Assembly: GCA_018725485.1 (NCBI GenBank)
Contig: QLUP01000033.1
Coordinates: 1-8,977, forward strand
DNA length: 8,977 nt
Direction of reading: 5' to 3'
Source: Candidatus Lithacetigena glycinireducens
GTDB taxonomy: Bacteria > Coprothermobacterota > HKB111
Position numbers and translations under genes: made by a program. Below, in pieces: positions 275-8,886 of this stretch. The notes beneath the pieces were generated by a model. The model had not been told where the DNA came from. It saw nothing but the letters and a program-made list of their open reading frames with translations, and made no database searches. Position 1 is the stretch's first letter; each line of letters begins with the position of its first letter.

Positions 275-303
275 TTGACTTTCTCTAATATTTGAGGTAT
301 ACT
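275..303 (+). promoter_or_regulatory. Promoter of tnpB, probably giving a leaderless mRNA
   Basis: TTGACT (275-280) and TATACT (298-303) are separated by exactly 17 nt and each differs from the sigma-70 consensus by one base. Transcription would start about 7 nt after the -10 box, at or next to the A of the ATG at 310. This leaves essentially no 5' leader and no ribosome site. Confidence 0.6.
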
Positions 304-309
304 AAACCT

Positions 310-1422
310 ATGAAATTGACACTGCAAGTAAAACTTTTGCCTACTACAGAACAAGCTAATACTCTCTTGAATACCCTGAAAGAGTGTAATAAGGCTTGTA
401 ACCAAATATCTGATGTTGTATGGCAAAATAGAATATTTAATCAACTTAAAGTCCACCATCTTGTTTACCATCACTTGAAGAAAACCACTAAACTTTCTGC
501 TCAAGTTATTGTTCGTTGTATTTCTAAAGTAATTGACGCTTATAAGATTGATAAGAAAAAGAAACGATTTTTTAAGCCTCTCGGTGCAATTACTTATGAC
601 CCTCGTATTCTTTCTTATAAAAAAGGTATCCAAGAAGTTTCTATCTGGTCTGTTGATGGCAGGTTGAAAATCCTTTTTGTATGTCATAATTCTAAATACC
701 TTCCTTATATCAAAGGTGAAGCAGACCTTGTTTATAAGAAAGGTAAGTTTTATCTTTTTCAGACCGTTGAAGTTCCTGAAGAGGATGTTAAGGATGTTGA
801 GGAGTTTATAGGGGTGGATTTTGGGAGAAATCAGATTGCAACTCTTTCTGATGGAACTCAATATGGTTCTGAAACTCTTAATAAGGTTAGAGATAAATAT
901 TTCAAAGTGCGTCGCTCTGTTCAAAGCAAATGCACAAGAGGTTCTAAAAAACTCTTGAAAAGGCTTAAAGGCAGAGAACAGAGATTTGCCACTATTACCA
1001 ATCACACAATAGCCAAACAAGTTGTCCAAAAAGCCAAGTCTCTTAATAAGGGAATTGCTATTGAAGATTTGACCCATATTAGGGAAAAAACTGTCGTAAG
1101 AAAGGCACAAAGAAGAAAACATCACTTGTGGGCTTTTGCTCAACTTCGCAACTTCCTTTCTTACAAAGCTAAACTTGCTGGTGTCCCTCTTAAAGTGGTT
1201 GACCCTCATTACACCAGCAAAACTTGCAATGCGTGTAAAATGATTGGCAATAGGAACGGCAAGCACTTTAGTTGTCCACATTGTAGCAATGTTTTTGATG
1301 CTGATATAAATGCGGCTAAAAATATTGCACAGCTGGGGGCGTTTTGTAAACCGCCCCGAAAAGATACGAGTATGTTGAATTCTGTTTCGCATATTCCTCT
1401 TAAAGCCCCTTCCAATCTTTGA
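310..1422 (+). CDS. tnpB: TnpB, RNA-guided nuclease of IS200/IS605 transposons (OrfB)
   Basis: TnpB is a compact RuvC nuclease that uses an RNA transcribed from the transposon right end to cut DNA next to a short TAM. This promotes retention of the element after excision. The frame can be extended to a TTG at 292, but that lies inside the promoter, so I start at the ATG at 310 (370 residues, normal family length). In the numbering from 310, the RuvC motifs are GVDFG (Asp170), GIAIED (Glu252) and DADINAAKNI (Asp332). The zinc finger cysteines are at 306, 309, 322 and 325, in CNAC and CPHC. All three catalytic acids and all four zinc ligands are present, so the protein looks active. The N-terminal segment KLTLQVKLLPTTEQ is the usual OrfB opening. 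The stop codon lies inside the right-end hairpin. Confidence 0.95.
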   Translation: MKLTLQVKLLPTTEQANTLLNTLKECNKACNQISDVVWQNRIFNQLKVHHLVYHHLKKTTKLSAQVIVRCISKVIDAYKIDKKKKRFFKPLGAITYDPRILSYKKGIQEVSIWSVDGRLKILFVCHNSKYLPYIKGEADLVYKKGKFYLFQTVEVPEEDVKDVEEFIGVDFGRNQIATLSDGTQYGSETLNKVRDKYFKVRRSVQSKCTRGSKKLLKRLKGREQRFATITNHTIAKQVVQKAKSLNKGIAIEDLTHIREKTVVRKAQRRKHHLWAFAQLRNFLSYKAKLAGVPLKVVDPHYTSKTCNACKMIGNRNGKHFSCPHCSNVFDADINAAKNIAQLGAFCKPPRKDTSMLNSVSHIPLKAPSNL

Positions 1423-2458: not shown

Positions 2459-3148
2459 TTACGATGATGTGTCAATAGTATCCTCCGGCAAACTATCATA
2501 TATTTCAGCAAGAGCACTACCCCTTATTTTTACATCTGGTAATGCCTTCGCTCTTGTTATCACCTGTTCCAACCTCTCTGCCTCTGGCATATTACTTGTA
2601 TCATCTATAATCGTTTTTAAAGCAACCATAGCCAGATGCTTTATAGTTCCAGATACTTCACTTTTTATAATATCTACAGGTTCACCTCTTTCTATTCGCT
2701 CCATCCTCCACGCCTCTTTTATCAATTGCAACGCCAAATTCTTATCACCCAACCACTCAACAATAAGTTTTTTCTCTCCTGTCACCTTATCAATTACTTC
2801 AATTTGTCTAAACAATTCCCGATAGCCAAGTTCTTTTAGTTTTTCTAACCTCTCCAGGTCCTTCACTTTCTGTTCTGTTATCTTATCCATTATCTTTTCG
2901 CTATTTCTAAGTTGCACCTGCTTTAACTTTTCCTCATTAAGTTTTATATTCTCTTGTCTCTTTGCTACCCATTTCTCCTTTGCACATTTAATTTCAATTG
3001 CTTGTGTAGATATATTATACTTTTTGGCTAGCTCTCCTAATGTAATATTTGGAGAATTTAGATATTCATATCTTATAGGTAGCCACGCTATCCTCTGATA
3101 TTTTTTCCTTTGCCTTTTTTCAATATCCTTATAGGATTTGGTAGGCAT
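2459..3148 (-). CDS. Probable phage terminase small subunit (HTH protein)
   Basis: 229 residues. A basic N-terminus (KRQRKKYQR) leads into a helix-turn-helix, ITLGELAKKYNISTQAIEIK at about 35-54, followed by KEKWVAKRQ. This is the usual DNA-binding opening of phage small terminase proteins that recognise the packaging site. Residues 66-115 are a charged, probably coiled-coil segment, as expected for an oligomerising TerS. The rest is not diagnostic. It has its own promoter just upstream (3202-3174) and a modest GAGG site before the ATG. The next genes are a ParB-like protein and a metallophosphoesterase; no large terminase is in the window, which weakens the call. A phage HTH regulator is the alternative. 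Confidence 0.6.
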   Translation of the reverse strand: MPTKSYKDIEKRQRKKYQRIAWLPIRYEYLNSPNITLGELAKKYNISTQAIEIKCAKEKWVAKRQENIKLNEEKLKQVQLRNSEKIMDKITEQKVKDLERLEKLKELGYRELFRQIEVIDKVTGEKKLIVEWLGDKNLALQLIKEAWRMERIERGEPVDIIKSEVSGTIKHLAMVALKTIIDDTSNMPEAERLEQVITRAKALPDVKIRGSALAEIYDSLPEDTIDTSS

Positions 3149-3173
3149 AACTTATTTTTCCTCTTTCCCTTAA

Positions 3174-3202
3174 ATTATATTAAATTATATGCCAGAAATC
3201 AA
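3174..3202 (-). promoter_or_regulatory. Promoter for the TerS-like operon
   Basis: On the minus strand TTGATT (3202-3197) and a perfect TATAAT (3179-3174) are separated by exactly 17 nt. The predicted transcript would start about 20 nt before the ATG at 3148, leaving room for its GAGG ribosome site. The -35 box lies at the edge of the intergenic repeat described at 3196-3287. The -10 box lies in a tandem 10-bp direct repeat, TAAATTATAT (3171-3180 and 3181-3190). Confidence 0.6.
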
Positions 3203-3287
3203 GAAAACGCTATTAGATGCACAAAAAGGGGTAAAATTAACGAGTTTTGAGTTTTCAGGTATCATAAACCTATCCTTACCTATTTTC
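3196..3287 (-). repeat. Intergenic repeat, copy 1
   Basis: This 92-nt block aligns along its length with 6123-6212. Identical anchors in the same order (plus strand) are AAATCAAG (3196-3203), GCACAAAAA and CCTATCCTTAC (3269-3279), with partial matches between them and a 2-3 nt gap. On the minus strand it lies just upstream of the TerS-like promoter and gene. It contains no ORF of note. It could be a diverged regulatory leader or protein-binding site. Confidence 0.6.
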
Positions 3288-3327
3288 ACGCAATTTGAGG
3301 CATTTTTGAAGCAATTTGCCCTATTTT
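3279..3327. repeat. Short direct repeats in the gap upstream of the TerS-like gene
   Basis: GCAATTTG occurs at 3290-3297 and 3311-3318, 21 nt apart, which is two helical turns. CCTATTTT occurs at 3279-3286 and 3320-3327, flanking them. The block is outside any gene and next to intergenic repeat copy 1, so paired operator sites are possible. The repeats are short and could be chance in AT-rich DNA. Confidence 0.35.
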
Positions 3328-3345
3328 AGATAATCCCCCAGCCCT

Positions 3346-3738
3346 TTAAGCCCCATTTACTTTATAAAATAACGCCCTCCCTCTTTGTATCTCTGCAACT
3401 ATTGTCAATTTTTCTCCATCGTATTCTAATATCCTTACTCTACTTTCCTCAACCTTTTGCCATACCTGAACCTTGCAATGTTGTAGTGGGAATTTATATT
3501 CAGCAAGTTTATCAAGTTTTTTCTTTATATCGCTATGGTAAGTTGCTTGGACAAATAATACCTTTTCCTCTGGGTGGAGTGCAAGTATATCACAACCAAA
3601 AAAATCATTGCCAACAAACCTTACCGCACCACCAATGTATAACGCTTTTTTACCAGCAAGATGGACCTGATATCCTTGCTTCTCCAACCACTCCTTGACA
3701 TAATACTCAAACCTCCTTCCCTTTTCTTTTTTATTCAC
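3346..3738 (-). CDS. PD-(D/E)XK-like nuclease, possibly a resolvase-type phage endonuclease
   Basis: 130 residues with the alpha-beta layout of small PD-(D/E)XK nucleases: a first helix with KGRRFEYYVKEWLEKQGY (Glu11), a strand carrying NDFFGCDILAL (Asp45, Asp50), then KVLFVQAT (Gln64). In active members the last motif is (E/Q)xK; here it reads QAT, so the usual lysine is absent or supplied from elsewhere, such as the nearby KKK at 72-74. The start is GTG at 3738, chosen because AAGGAGGTGATAA sits directly before it. It follows the second methyltransferase by 11 nt, with the stop TAA overlapping the ribosome site. Context suggests recombination, resolution or a nuclease paired with the methyltransferases. 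The fold call is moderate and activity is uncertain. Confidence 0.55.
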   Translation of the reverse strand: MNKKEKGRRFEYYVKEWLEKQGYQVHLAGKKALYIGGAVRFVGNDFFGCDILALHPEEKVLFVQATYHSDIKKKLDKLAEYKFPLQHCKVQVWQKVEESRVRILEYDGEKLTIVAEIQRGRALFYKVNGA

Positions 3739-3749
3739 TTATCACCTCC

Positions 3750-4532
3750 TTAAAATAAATTACCCTGCCCACATTTTATACTCGATAATTCACAATACTT
3801 CTTTGATATGTCAACTAAAATTGCCTTTCTTTTTAATCTTTTTGCAACTACCCCTGTGGTCCCGCTTCCTGCAAATGGGTCTAATATAGTATTTCCAACA
3901 TACGAGTATAATTTTATCAATCTATAAGGCAATCCCTCTGGAAATGCCGCTGGATGTTTTGATATTTCTTCTCTTGTAGGATAAATAGTCCAAACATTAG
4001 TTGAAAATCGTAAAAATTCTTTTGCCGTTATATCAATTTTTTCTTTGTCTCCTTCTAAATCATACTTTTCTTTTGACATTATTACAATATATTCTGAGCC
4101 GTCCCGCAAATAAGGGTTTGAAGGATTTTTCCACGAGCCCCAAGCAGTAGAATGACCAGGAACTACTCCCCCCTCCATTTTAACCCAAGTAAGCCACTCC
4201 CTATCAAGAAAACCAATCCTTCTTAGCAGAAGGGTTAAATCCAATGCTAGGAAGGCAATTCTCGTAAAGGTATGTTGCTTAATGCAAGATGGAACATTTA
4301 CGCATAACCTACCACCAGAGACCAAAACACGATAACACTCCCTAAAAACATTTTCTAACATCCCAAAATATTTATCTTGTGACATCCTATCATAATGATT
4401 ATCATAATCAATTCCAGCGTTATAAGGTGGTGAGGTAATTATTAAATGCACGGAGTTATCCTCAATAAAACTTAAATCCTGACTATCTGTGTTATAAATT
4501 TTGACTAGGTCGTCTTGATAGTATGTTTTCAT
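3750..4532 (-). CDS. Beta-class DNA methyltransferase 2 (m4C or m6A)
   Basis: A 260-residue S-adenosylmethionine-dependent DNA methyltransferase. The catalytic motif IV, TSPPYN (33-38), comes before the AdoMet-binding motif I, DPFAGSGTT (218-226), which defines the beta class. HPAAFPE (193-199) is the motif preceding it. SPPY is typical of N4-cytosine enzymes, but some beta-class adenine enzymes also carry it, so the base methylated is not settled. Its ATG overlaps the stop of methyltransferase 1 by 4 nt (ATGA), so the two are translated together. All core motifs are intact and the length is normal. A second, non-identical methyltransferase alongside suggests either an asymmetric site, one enzyme per strand, or two separate specificities. 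Confidence 0.92.
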   Translation of the reverse strand: MKTYYQDDLVKIYNTDSQDLSFIEDNSVHLIITSPPYNAGIDYDNHYDRMSQDKYFGMLENVFRECYRVLVSGGRLCVNVPSCIKQHTFTRIAFLALDLTLLLRRIGFLDREWLTWVKMEGGVVPGHSTAWGSWKNPSNPYLRDGSEYIVIMSKEKYDLEGDKEKIDITAKEFLRFSTNVWTIYPTREEISKHPAAFPEGLPYRLIKLYSYVGNTILDPFAGSGTTGVVAKRLKRKAILVDISKKYCELSSIKCGQGNLF

Positions 4533-5344
4533 AGAAATAAATTACCGCTCACTCCTTGCAATTGCTTGATTGCTGTATTGAGATAATTTTTATTTACCTC
4601 AATGCCGATATATTTTCTACATAACCTTTTTGCCACAAAAGAAGTAGTTCCAGAACCTAGAAATGGGTCCAATACCAAATCTCCTTTATTGCTCCATCCC
4701 TCAATACAAAGGGAGACAATTTTTTCTGGAAACCTTGCAGGGTGAGGTGGGTTTTCTAAGTGAACAGCAGGTATCTCCCAAACATTTCCCAATAGAGCCC
4801 CCTTTTCATTAAATTTCCATTTCCTTTTATCTTTTTTAGCCCAAATGCTTTTCGGTAATCTTAAACTATCTGGATTAAAAACATAACTATCACTTTTGAT
4901 AAAGTGTAGTAGTTGCTCATACTTATTGACCAAATACCTATCATTTACAACAGGCATCTTATTTGGAATATACCAGATAATTCTCTGTCTTAATTTAAGC
5001 GGAGAAATATCAATAATTAAATCACTTAACCTAACTAAATTATTACTTCTTTGAACATCCATAATGTTGAATATTACATTTCCACTTTGCTTTAAAATTC
5101 GGTGAAATTGTTTGAATACATTTTCCATTGAAAAAATATACTCATCTAAACTTTGACCATATCCAATTTCATTTCCATTGTTGTATTTATGGATATTCCA
5201 GTAAGGTGGAGAGGTGACTATTAAAGATATAGTTTCATCTGGAATTAAAGGCAATATTTTTAAGCAATCGGACAACACCAATATCCCGTCGTCCTCTTGG
5301 TAAAATATCTCATCACTTAACTGTTCTTTCACTTGCTCAAACAT
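4529..5344 (-). CDS. Beta-class DNA methyltransferase 1 (probable m4C)
   Basis: 271 residues with the beta-class order: motif IV TSPPYW (44-49), a middle region that should include the target recognition part (about 115-190), HPARFPEKIV (201-210) and motif I DPFLGSGTT (226-234), then GIEVNKNYL. TSPPYW is most common among N4-cytosine methyltransferases. It differs clearly from methyltransferase 2 outside the motifs, so the pair is not a recent duplication. The ATG has no ribosome site and directly follows the upstream gene's stop as TAAAATG (5348-5342), implying translational coupling. The role is probably self-protection of phage DNA against host restriction; no adjacent classical restriction enzyme is evident. 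Confidence 0.92.
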   Translation of the reverse strand: MFEQVKEQLSDEIFYQEDDGILVLSDCLKILPLIPDETISLIVTSPPYWNIHKYNNGNEIGYGQSLDEYIFSMENVFKQFHRILKQSGNVIFNIMDVQRSNNLVRLSDLIIDISPLKLRQRIIWYIPNKMPVVNDRYLVNKYEQLLHFIKSDSYVFNPDSLRLPKSIWAKKDKRKWKFNEKGALLGNVWEIPAVHLENPPHPARFPEKIVSLCIEGWSNKGDLVLDPFLGSGTTSFVAKRLCRKYIGIEVNKNYLNTAIKQLQGVSGNLFL

Positions 5345-6265: not shown

Positions 6266-6511
6266 CTACTTATTTTTTATCCTGCCACACACCAGACACT
6301 CTCCATCTACTACCTCTTCAACGTGCGCTCCACAAGTGCAATGCCCACCCGCTTCCAGCATTTCTCCTATGGTATCAAATCCCTCTCCCTGCTCTAACTC
6401 CTCGCTCTCACGCAATAGAGAGTTGTCTATTGCTGGTCGCTCTGGTTGGAAACGCGGACCTGTTTCATACAACCCCATTACTCTAAAAATTTGTGCTGTC
6501 AAATCAAACAT
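6266..6511 (-). CDS. Small protein with C-terminal CxC/CxxC zinc-binding motif
   Basis: 81 residues from the ATG at 6511, which has AGGAGG 7 nt upstream. A longer frame to 6544 would start inside the upstream gene without a ribosome site. The last 25 residues carry CTC (Cys58, Cys60) and CLVC (Cys72, Cys75), a likely zinc knuckle. The middle (30-50) is acidic. It overlaps the octapeptide-repeat gene by 13 nt and ends the upstream gene block before the 166-nt gap. No family is recognised. Confidence 0.6.
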   Translation of the reverse strand: MFDLTAQIFRVMGLYETGPRFQPERPAIDNSLLRESEELEQGEGFDTIGEMLEAGGHCTCGAHVEEVVDGECLVCGRIKNK

Positions 6512-7032
6512 TTTATGCCTCCTTTTGTTTTTGTTTTTTCCCAAAACTTAATTTCCCCAGAAACTATGCTTGCTATTTGATTGTAGTGCTCTGAAAATTT
6601 ATTTGCTTCAAATACTCTAAACTCAAACTTATTGCTTTCCTCATCTTGGTAATGTAAAACTAAAATTGTATCTTCTGTGCAAACCCATCTACAGTTATCT
6701 CCATAATTCACACAAACACCAGCCCTACCCGTCTTTAACAATTTTGAGAACCTGCCTACTGATTGCCCACAGTCCCCTGATACTGACTGCCCATAACTCG
6801 TTGATATTGACTGCCCCCTGTTTCCTGATGTTGACCGTCCCCAATCCCTTGATATTGACTGCCCCCAATCCCCTGATACTGACTGTCCGCTGTCCCCTGC
6901 TATTGATTGTCCACAGTCCCCAGACATTGATTGTCCACAGTCCCCAGACATTGATTGTCCCTTATCTCCCGATGTTGACTGTCCATCAATATAGACAACT
7001 CTACCACGCACTTCATCTGCCTTTTTACTCAT
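6499..7032 (-). CDS. Octapeptide-repeat protein (GQSxSGDx repeats)
   Basis: 177 residues. Residues 17-94 are nine complete 8-residue units plus a partial tenth, with consensus G-Q-S-hydrophobic-S-G-D-x. The last position varies (K, C, C, S, W, W, R, Y, C). Regular G-x-S-x-x-G-D spacing suggests a beta-solenoid or beta-roll, and similar octapeptide repeats occur in uncharacterised phage and bacterial proteins. The C-terminal part (95-177) is non-repetitive, with Cys107, Cys114 and Cys118 and a beta-rich section. The start ATG has GGAGG 6 nt upstream and overlaps the Cys-rich gene by 4 nt (ATGA). No signal peptide is visible, so it is probably cytoplasmic. The biochemical role is unknown. Confidence 0.75.
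   Translation of the reverse strand: MSKKADEVRGRVVYIDGQSTSGDKGQSMSGDCGQSMSGDCGQSIAGDSGQSVSGDWGQSISRDWGRSTSGNRGQSISTSYGQSVSGDCGQSVGRFSKLLKTGRAGVCVNYGDNCRWVCTEDTILVLHYQDEESNKFEFRVFEANKFSEHYNQIASIVSGEIKFWEKTKTKGGIKCLI
6751..6984 (-). repeat. 24-bp tandem coding repeats
   Basis: About 9.75 copies of a 24-bp unit, in frame with the octapeptide repeats. Two adjacent units (the second and third) are identical in DNA sequence, a sign of recent duplication, while the others have diverged mainly at the eighth codon and at third positions. Copy number is likely to vary among relatives. Confidence 0.85.
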
Positions 7033-7427
7033 TTGACACCTCCTTTTTTTTGTTTTGTTTTTTTACTCTCTTCTTCCTCGTCTTTTTTTACGAGGTTAGT
7101 AAGGTAAGTTATTTGCGGGCAGAGTTGAAAACAATCCCAGCCACAGCCAATAAAACAGCACTCGGAATAAATACCCCTCTCGCATTTTGAACTTCGCTTT
7201 AAATTCTCCAGACACTTTCCCCTCACTAAATCGGGGCACTCCTTTCTTGCTTTCACTTGCAATACCTTTCTGGATTTGAGAAAGGAACTACTTTGGGTTA
7301 TTGACCCGATGCCAACATTGCCGTTATCTGTTATCCTTATTAAGAACTTACTTTGCTTTTCTCTTAATGTCTTCTTTTTCCGCATCTTTGACCTCCTTGC
7401 TTTTACTTTCAAAATTTTTCTTGTCAT
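7029..7427 (-). CDS. Basic Cys-rich hypothetical protein with an internal duplication
   Basis: 132 residues. The N-terminal half is very basic. The C-terminal half has eight cysteines within 40 residues (64, 72, 82, 90, 91, 95, 99, 103), the last ones spaced CxxxCxxxCxxxC, suggesting zinc or Fe-S binding. The decapeptide RKILKVKARR (3-12) recurs as RKVLQVKARK (53-62), and the two DNA segments are 23/30 identical, so part of the gene is an old duplication. Two starts are possible. The ATG at 7427 has AGGAGG 7 nt upstream and a 4-nt overlap with the previous gene; the ATG at 7385 has AGGAGG 6 nt upstream. The tail is Lys/Glu-rich. No family is recognised. Confidence 0.5.
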   Translation of the reverse strand: MTRKILKVKARRSKMRKKKTLREKQSKFLIRITDNGNVGIGSITQSSSFLKSRKVLQVKARKECPDLVRGKCLENLKRSSKCERGIYSECCFIGCGWDCFQLCPQITYLTNLVKKDEEEESKKTKQKKGGVK

Positions 7428-7945
7428 ACGCTCACCTCCTTATGTTTTTTTTGTTCTTTCTCTCTCTCCTCTCTCACCTCCTTGTGCGTTTTGACGCCTT
7501 CAATTTTTCTCACAAGTTCGTCGAGCTGTGAATCCGAATACGGATACCTTGCCTCTAACTCCCCCTCTGAAATACCTTCGTTATGTAGCCACTTCTGATA
7601 CACGGAGTAGTGCAAATCATCAATAGGGTAGCCAGCGAGAGACATTACGGTTTTCCAGGTCTTAAATAGGGTAAATCTTATTCCCCCTATCCGTTGCATT
7701 AGGTCATAGGTGTATTTCCAATCTCTTCCTTTCTCATCTCTTGTTGTTTCTTTTTTCCCTAATTGCCAAAAGCGGTTCATATTGGGGAATTGTGCATCTT
7801 CCTTCAAAATGGTGTCAACCACATACTTAAAATTTACAATGTCCTTTAACTCGTTGTAAAAAAATTCCCTCTCTCTGCTCGTTAGTCGCTTGTCAAAGTT
7901 TATTTCTAATCTCCCAAACTCATACTCAAAAAGTTTTTTAGTCAT
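7424..7945 (-). CDS. Putative replicative helicase loader (G39P-like N-terminus)
   Basis: 173 residues. The first 65 residues (RLEINFDKRLTSREREFFYNEL, broken here as RLEINFDKRL then TSREREFFYNEL, then FKYVVDTILKEDAQFPNMNRFWQLG) follow the pattern of small phage proteins of the G39P loader-inhibitor type: a worker helix, a second helix ending in a hydrophobic stretch, then a FPxxxxF/W turn. This is pattern similarity by eye. The remainder is not recognised and ends in a charged helix. Its place directly after the initiator, with an 8-nt overlap (ATGACTAA) and GGAGGAAG just before the ATG, fits a replication partner. Loaders commonly follow initiators in phage replication modules. Confidence 0.4.
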   Translation of the reverse strand: MTKKLFEYEFGRLEINFDKRLTSREREFFYNELKDIVNFKYVVDTILKEDAQFPNMNRFWQLGKKETTRDEKGRDWKYTYDLMQRIGGIRFTLFKTWKTVMSLAGYPIDDLHYSVYQKWLHNEGISEGELEARYPYSDSQLDELVRKIEGVKTHKEVREEREKEQKKHKEVSV

Positions 7946-8822
7946 CTTCTTCCTCCTCTAAAAATTTTTTCTTCCACTCCTCACGCTCATATTCTCTACC
8001 ACTTCTCATTTGCAAATCAATTTTATCATATTGCTTTCTTAACTTTTCTGTGGAGAGAATTACATTTTGCCAGAAGTCATCTGCTTGACACCACTCTATT
8101 ATTTGTCTTATTTTTTCGGGGTCTCTCTTGTCTATCCTTATCATTAGGTCAATATGTCTTGCCCACTTCTGTAAGTCAGGTTTTTTGTAGTCAGGTTTTC
8201 TCTCTATGATTTTATCTAATAAAAGTTTAGATAGTCCAAACTCAATTTGAGTTGGGACGAAAGATGTTTTAATTTCTTTTACTTCTTCTTCTTCTTCTTC
8301 TTCTTTACTTTCCTTTCCTTTACTTTTCTTTCCTTTACTTTCCTTTCCTTTGTTATACTTTGTTATAACATCGTCATCTTTTGTTATAACATTGTTATGT
8401 TCATCGTCATCTTTTGTTATAACATTGTTATCTTTTTTCATAACATTGTTATAACATTGATATTTCCACCTTGTAGTCATACCTTTTTTACCTGCTCTAC
8501 TTCTTGCTAATCTTTTTTCTTTTCGCTCCTTTAAATTATTTAATACTCTATCGTTCCAAATAGAGTTATCATCTTTATTAAGTAATTTCAGTTGATACAA
8601 TATTGTTATGATATTATTAAGTTTTTCTAACTCAACATTGAGTGAAAAAGCAACTCCCTCTATTTCATCAAGTTGTATTTTTCCACCCTGCTCATGTAGG
8701 ATTTCTATAAGTTGCCAGTAAATTCCATATCCTTCATTTCCTAATCTCAATCTTAGTTGTAATATTTTTGGGTCGTTTCTTGCGTTATAGTCGTGTGGGA
8801 AGTAGTAAGCGTTATCTTTCAT
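7938..8822 (-). CDS. Phage replication initiator/replisome organiser (Lin1244/DUF4373 N-terminal domain)
   Basis: 294 residues. Residues 4-118 match the Lin1244/Lin1753-like winged-helix domain: YYFPHDYNARNDPKILQLR, GNEGYGIYWQLIEILHEQGG, then SRAGKKGMTTRW at 108-119. Residues 121-181 are a low-complexity linker with repeats of NNVITKDDD, KGKESKGKKSKGK and a run of Glu. Residues 196-265 match the C-terminal domain common in phage replication proteins (KPDLQKWARHIDLMIRID, WCQADDFWQNVILSTEKLR). Such proteins bind the origin and recruit helicase. The ATG at 8822 has AAAGGAG about 11 nt upstream. GTTATAAC palindromes lie in its leader and in the linker coding DNA, so the gene may contain its own origin and be autoregulated. 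Confidence 0.85.
   Translation of the reverse strand: MKDNAYYFPHDYNARNDPKILQLRLRLGNEGYGIYWQLIEILHEQGGKIQLDEIEGVAFSLNVELEKLNNIITILYQLKLLNKDDNSIWNDRVLNNLKERKEKRLARSRAGKKGMTTRWKYQCYNNVMKKDNNVITKDDDEHNNVITKDDDVITKYNKGKESKGKKSKGKESKEEEEEEEVKEIKTSFVPTQIEFGLSKLLLDKIIERKPDYKKPDLQKWARHIDLMIRIDKRDPEKIRQIIEWCQADDFWQNVILSTEKLRKQYDKIDLQMRSGREYEREEWKKKFLEEEEDD
8345..8455 (-). repeat. Iteron-like GTTATAAC array inside the initiator gene
   Basis: Exact GTTATAAC at 8362-8369, 8383-8390, 8416-8423 and 8448-8455. Degenerate copies at 8352 (GTTATACT), 8394 (GTTATGTT), 8427 (GTTATCTT) and 8437 (ending CATAAC) keep a step of about 10-12 nt. The DNA also encodes the NNVITKDDD peptide repeat, so amino-acid-level selection is an alternative. 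The identical 8-mer in the noncoding leader argues for a DNA-level role. Base 8345-8369 is 22/25 identical to 8834-8858. Confidence 0.6.
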
Positions 8823-8833
8823 ATTGTTTATTT

Positions 8834-8886
8834 CTCCTTTGTTATGTTTTGTTATAACGGTGTTAACGGTGTTATAACGGTGTTTA
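8834..8886 (-). repeat. Iteron-like repeats in the initiator leader
   Basis: Plus-strand GTTATAAC at 8851-8858 and 8871-8878 with GTTAAC (8862-8867) between them. On the minus strand ACACCGTTA is repeated three times with steps of 9 and 11 nt. The block lies between the upstream gene's stop and the initiator's ribosome site. The final 25 nt recur within the initiator gene. Origin iterons or an initiator operator are the natural readings. Confidence 0.6.

Follow-up and report, generated by a model that had tools for sequence, protein, structure and literature searches.

A probable intragenic iteron origin of replication in a Lin1244_N-type initiator gene

The window, an 8,977-nucleotide stretch of DNA from Candidatus Lithacetigena glycinireducens, contains a replication initiator gene in which about ten short repeat units, spaced one helical turn apart, are followed directly by a 5-bp purine-rich repeat. 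Judged from its sequence, this arrangement is very probably an intragenic iteron origin that is bound by the N-domain of the initiator itself. In the mechanism that we propose, the winged-helix N-domain would bind the approximately ten sites inside its own gene, the resulting complex would open the adjoining (AAAGN)n tract, which is strand-asymmetric, and the replicative helicase would be recruited by the C-domain, possibly aided by a loader. Because the array DNA codes for a disordered linker, the protein would tolerate any peptide that the DNA dictates. The features concerned are as follows.

7938..8822, minus strand: initiator gene (294 aa), encoding a Lin1244_N winged-helix N-domain, a disordered linker and a C-domain
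8430..8804, minus strand: N-domain coding part (residues 7-131; Pfam, AlphaFold and superposition), the presumed iteron-binding module
7944..8246, minus strand: C-domain coding part (residues 193-293; family matches and AlphaFold)
8352..8455, minus strand: intragenic array of ten iteron units (GTTATAAC/ATAAC) with a spacing of about 10.7 bp, in codons 123-157
8303..8351, minus strand: 5-bp tract (AAAGN)n of about 9.8 copies (TRF period 5), on the coding strand and directly 3′ of the iterons
8592..8621, minus strand: two degenerate iteron copies 11 bp apart within the stretch encoding the N-domain; a second iteron cluster lies here in several relatives
8841..8878, minus strand: leader array GTTATAAC-GTTAAC-GTTATAAC-ATAAC in steps of about 10 bp, a candidate operator or second binding site
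7424..7945, minus strand: next gene (173 aa), whose start overlaps the initiator stop

The first-pass annotation had reported the 8-bp palindrome GTTATAAC twice in the leader and four times in the gene, and all six copies were recovered (8851-8858 and 8871-8878 in the leader; 8362-8369, 8383-8390, 8416-8423 and 8448-8455 in the gene). Together with one further, unrelated copy at 1910-1917, the window holds 7 exact copies, compared to 0.20 expected from dinucleotide shuffles, none of 200 of which reached 7. The degenerate copies that were said to fill in steps of 10-12 nt are also present: when GTTAT, ATAAC and ATGAC are counted as half-sites, the ten intragenic units have centre gaps of 11, 10, 11, 10, 12, 11, 10, 11 and 10 nt, and their best period of 10.7 bp (R/n 0.97) was matched by none of 3000 peptide-preserving codon resamplings. 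The gene contains 4 palindromes against a mean of 0.61 in the codon null (P ~2.5e-4) and 12 half-sites against 4.5, a number reached by 0 of 20,000 resamplings. Within the gene, the copies of the 8-mer fall in two reading frames, three of them encoding VIT and one CYN. These results support the conclusion that the repeats in the window are under DNA-level constraint. The NNVITKDDD peptide repeats, which come from the iterons, look like a by-product of DNA signals, as had been suggested earlier and as both the codon nulls and the codon choice in the tract (see below) support.

The initiator protein matched Lin1244_N (PF14297) at 47.2 bits against a cut-off of 25, consistent with the initial identification of the gene as a relative of replication initiators. 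Lin1244_N was the only domain above the Pfam cut-off; the RepA_N domain was not matched, and Phage_rep_O (PF04492, the lambda O family) gave no match at E 0.1. Among PHROG families, phrog_2514, phrog_391, phrog_2562 and phrog_4880 matched the protein, its C-terminal part matched phage replisome-organiser/DnaD-like families, and "replication initiation protein" is a frequent annotation among its phage relatives. An AlphaFold model built from 55 sequences (pLDDT 83) was ordered at residues 7-131 (N-domain) and 193-293 (C-domain) and disordered at residues 137-180, where pLDDT was below 50 except for one residue; the array and tract encode mainly this predicted linker, plus the end of the preceding long helix. 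A solved structure was sought by sequence, both for the protein and for its alignment, and none was found. When superposed on the N-terminal domains of RepA_N Rep proteins (4pql, 5kbj and 4pt7), the N-domain model gave Z scores of 7.2-7.4 and an rmsd of 2.4-2.5 over 79 residues with 20% identity, Z scores of about 7 being common among winged helices.

In pSK41 Rep, the boxes bound by the winged-helix N-terminal domain lie in the middle of the rep gene, the ori encodes a linker that forms the central part of the protein, and the C-terminal domain is separate (PMC5703833). The window resembles such RepA_N initiators by anatomy only, in that its repeats are central in the gene and within the linker part; it differs from them in that its N-domain is Lin1244_N according to Pfam and its context phage-like, and in that about ten 10.7-bp units and a 5-bp AAAGN tract take the place of the four Rep boxes of pSK41. 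At the position of the 173-aa gene, relatives often have a DnaC-like helicase loader. The 173-aa protein had no family match above cut-off and, lacking a match, was rejected as a known helicase loader. The window stops 155 bp upstream of the initiator start codon, and the element is incomplete. Elsewhere in the window we observed a TnpB/OrfB gene of the IS200/IS605 type (292-1422, plus strand), which is the sole large plus-strand gene in a minus-strand block; two N6/N4 DNA methylase genes side by side (3750-5344, minus strand), both similar to phrog_67 and possibly a duplicated pair; and a gene (6499-7032, minus strand) for a protein with about nine 8-aa SGDxGQS-type repeats, corresponding to a 24-bp tandem DNA repeat at 6760-6985.

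We surveyed 129 non-redundant Lin1244_N genes from viral and genomic contigs and phage records. Exact 8-mers repeated at least 4 times in at least 2 reading frames were present in 28 of the 129 initiators and in 4 of 248 control ORFs, and a codon-null p≤0.01 was reached by 15 of 129 and 0 of 248, respectively; in this exact-word test some words are the purine tract itself and a minority of single genes pass, and a test based on position is cleaner. In 123 linkers, self-similarity exceeded a peptide-preserving null with z = 13.6 at lag 11, 9.6 at lag 22 and 8.1 at lag 33, as well as 13.5, 13.1 and 7.5 at lags of 5, 10 and 15 nt. The excess at lags 11 and 22 was absent from the C-terminal region (z of 0.5, −0.6 and 2.0 at lags 11, 22 and 33) and from the early N region (−2.3, 0.4 and 0.8), and it remained when the purine tract was cut off the linkers (10.7, 8.0 and 7.1). 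Since the lag test is biased inside the tract, where stretches were picked by AAAG content, our conclusion rests on stretches set by position or by peptide.

The repeated linker words vary from gene to gene (TGCAATGCA, TGCGAACGC, GTTCAACGG, TGGCAATGCC, AGCAATCGG and others), and the reading frames differ as well, while the layout of about 11 bp recurs. Arrays of the ATAACA/TGTTATAACA type were found at the same place in ten relatives whose N-domains are ~31-43% identical to that of the window; closeness of the N-domain was not a strong predictor of the ATAACA word (4/29 vs 4/89, P=0.10). Many equally close relatives use other words, indicating that the iteron word can change quickly. In some genes there is a second intragenic cluster, repeated linker words occurring in N-domain codons 51-85 at 3.1 per kb compared to 0.12 elsewhere. 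Relatives that kept the peptide repeat and lost the 8-mer, an outcome that the first-pass annotation had regarded as decisive against its proposal, were not seen; position and 11-bp spacing are kept, and word and peptide both change.

The purine tract covers codons 158-173 of the initiator, where it encodes KESK(V/G), and the purine run goes on past it to 8270 as (GAA)n; over 8270-8351 the coding strand is 93% purine (and the plus strand 93% pyrimidine). An easily melted duplex was rejected as the full reason for the tract, because the tract is only mildly unstable, with 7-16% of windows along the DNA being less stable. A purine tract was present in 103 of the 123 Lin1244_N relatives. To describe codon choice across relatives, tracts were delimited by their peptide alone. 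In these, 90% of serine codons are AGT compared to 20% elsewhere in the same genes, valine is GTA in 96% (28% elsewhere), lysine before valine is AAA in 98% (70% elsewhere) and lysine before lysine is AAG in 84% (36% elsewhere). This choice is far from the genes' own usage, which argues that the DNA 5-mer AAAGN is selected and that KESKV follows. Three AAAGT units in a row plus AA produce TAA in every frame, and in coding tracts N was T in 0 of 93 cases at codon position 1, 43 of 111 at position 2 and 89 of 129 at position 3; the absence of T at position 1 is forced by the stop codon, whereas the preference at the other positions is not.

Conversely, NNVITKDDD and KESKV could be useful linker peptides that the DNA merely follows. 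KESKV is indeed read in a single frame in all tract-scan matches, though the other two frames of the 26-mer contain TAA. Given the synonymous codon choice described above, and given that the same 11-bp unit yields different peptides in different frames, we regard selection on the peptide as highly improbable, the least probable of the three alternatives considered here, and favor selection on the DNA.

A scan with the 26-nt tract, by DNA only, matched 121 ORFs of at least 100 aa, of which 111 were Lin1244_N-like. Of the remaining ten, several have their start within the gene or the tract. The three complete ones that were tested belong to other replication-initiation families, such as phrog_1408. 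The tract lies beside this different N-domain family at three loci (L417, L388 and L441), in one of which (L417) a C-domain of the window type stands behind the phrog_1408-type N-domain and the tract. Two short Lin1244_N-like ORFs (L495, 5148-5627, minus strand; L506, 163-636, plus strand) consist of the N-domain alone and end inside an AAAGT tract, and their C-part may be encoded by a separate gene. The uninterrupted (AAAGT)n 24-mer was found in only 19 viral contigs, mostly intergenically or at ORF ends, and often directly behind 11- or 22-bp repeats. Since the 26-nt and 24-mer scans selected their loci by the tract, these loci do not bear independently on how frequent it is.

The B. subtilis oriC offers a parallel in its DnaA-trios/DnaD recognition element, likewise a short motif repeated on one strand of the unwinding region, although the tract in the window has a period of 5 rather than 3. 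DnaD binds a TnnT motif (PMC10201434), with which the pyrimidine strand of the tract, TnCT every 5 nt, would be compatible, a fit that we offer as speculation. As the tract is not unusually weak as a duplex, it more likely acts through recognition of a single strand than by simply melting. We see an even chance that (AAAGT)n represents an origin element that is sequence-specific and so far undescribed, common to phages whose initiator N-domains differ, and read single-stranded as an analogue of the DnaA-trios or the DnaD recognition element; it would be constrained strongly enough to write a KESKV linker into a very large number of phage proteins, its third unit being changed to dodge stops. 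The O gene of lambda also has an A/G-rich tract behind its iterons (PMC7466680); these iterons are 18 bp long and occur every 20-24 bp, unlike the ~10.7-bp units of the window. A lambda-type N-domain joined to the same kind of C-domain as in the window was found at another locus (L004).

In contig G104, the same iterons, the junction TTACTCTCCCACAAGTAAA and the tract occur twice, at 8552 and 30613 (22 kb apart). One copy lies inside an initiator gene and has AAAGG at every third unit, which keeps TAA stops out, whereas the other is non-coding and consists of pure (AAAGT)n. The two copies correspond to the following loci.

L501, around 4078-4101, minus strand, and L388, 264-1064, minus strand: G104 pair with the same iterons and tract, coding/non-coding

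In contig G112, GCCGAAAC at 11-bp steps precedes a non-coding tract at 35065 and recurs 11 kb away in the linker of a Lin1244_N gene with a tract at 46214. In a third contig (G113), iterons GTTTAGGGGTAC with a tract lie downstream of the gene, whose linker contains near-copies without a tract. Two contigs (L497 and L495) combine an uninterrupted tract with a Lin1244_N gene, and a clear shared iteron was not found there; a tract with TTAATG-type repeats is visible in phages phiFL1A, B054, bIL286 and iLp84. The arrangement in G104 and G112 is like that of SPP1, in which oriL, within gene 38 (gp38), consists of direct repeats and an unwinding region and a second copy, oriR, is located ~13 kb away outside the gene (PMC6316719). 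By contrast, no second iteron-plus-tract copy for the window's element was found in the incomplete MAG, where the leader iterons have no tract and no other GTTATAAC pair occurs.

A disordered linker that is free to vary could also accumulate slippage repeats without meaning, and the K/E/S-rich, low-complexity tail of this linker, together with a 15-nt KESKV unit and 21/33-nt units that could be copied in frame, would suit such neutral expansion. Units of 11 nt, however, cannot be added one at a time in coding sequence, an excess at lags of 11 and 22 nt stands over a fixed-peptide null, the same words recur in non-coding copies elsewhere, and synonymous choice in the tract is position-specific; we therefore consider neutral expansion very unlikely, though a little less so than selection on the peptide.

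The leader array sits in the short gap between the stop of the upstream gene and the initiator start codon, and a 25-bp element shared with the coding sequence (8834-8858 and 8345-8369, 22/25) was confirmed. A sigma-70-like promoter was sought on the leader and not found. Of 9 leader word matches among the 37 relatives whose linkers carry repeated words, 7 came from the window itself; the leaders of relatives being almost empty of linker words, the leader array was rejected as a family-wide feature. The two-part origin proposed in the first-pass annotation has parallels in the two phage contigs with a second, non-coding copy 11 and 22 kb away; its leader part is not supported as a general feature. 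Autoregulation by the initiator via the leader array is plausible, and this array is probably, at close to even odds, an extra binding site by which the initiator dampens its own expression.

If the arrays served purely as operators, the initiator (or else a repressor of the phage) would bind leader and gene to stop its own transcription, and the origin would lie elsewhere. The position of the leader array before the start codon, with its end overlapping the ribosome-binding stretch, would fit this, as would the upstream sites of pSK639-type replicons (PMC5703833). Relatives, however, keep the intragenic array and hardly ever the leader array, an operator has no need of the adjacent AAAGN tract, and two other phages have a further copy of the pair of iterons and tract in non-coding DNA, well away from the gene. 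A purely regulatory role is therefore improbable, if the strongest of the three alternatives, and an intragenic origin remains our preferred reading.

Intragenic iteron origins themselves are known. For the module of 11-bp iterons and an AAAGT tract, no description was found in the literature searched: searches for DUF4373 origins and for KESKVKESK or AAAGT as an origin motif returned none, and the DUF4373 papers found concern iron. Lin1244_N (DUF4373) proteins were found in numerous contigs of phages and prophages, whose hosts include Firmicutes and Bacteroidetes. If our reading is correct, the origins of Lin1244_N phages could be read from sequence, a single gene holding each phage's iteron word together with its unwinding tract and cognate domain, which would provide a rule for locating phage origins; a widespread low-complexity peptide would be explained as the footprint of a DNA function, and coding/non-coding pairs of one origin would be natural tests of overlapping constraints.

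The same MAG contains a second Lin1244_N gene (contig C198), the only close relative found within the MAG's own phylum. In its linker, GATGTCAACAC/GATGTAAACAC units recur every 11 nt (GATGTMAACAC) and use all three reading frames, giving DVNT, MST and CKH. The window contig and C198 have in common the end of the upstream gene as far as its stop codon and, past the linker, both the tract and the stretch encoding SFVPTQ; leader, N-domain and iterons differ between them. The comparison looks like a swap of a module comprising the DNA-binding domain and its cognate sites, resembling pPR9 and pSK41, between which the N-terminal domain and ori are exchangeable as a unit (PMC5703833). C198 also carries, at 3139-4811 of locus L010, a row of genes for a small, possibly ubiquitin-like protein and a suspected E2-like 185-aa protein, neither with a Pfam match, and for a ThiF/E1-family protein (PF00899), near an AAA_24 recombination-type gene; this row is perhaps a phage-borne ubiquitin-like conjugation set.
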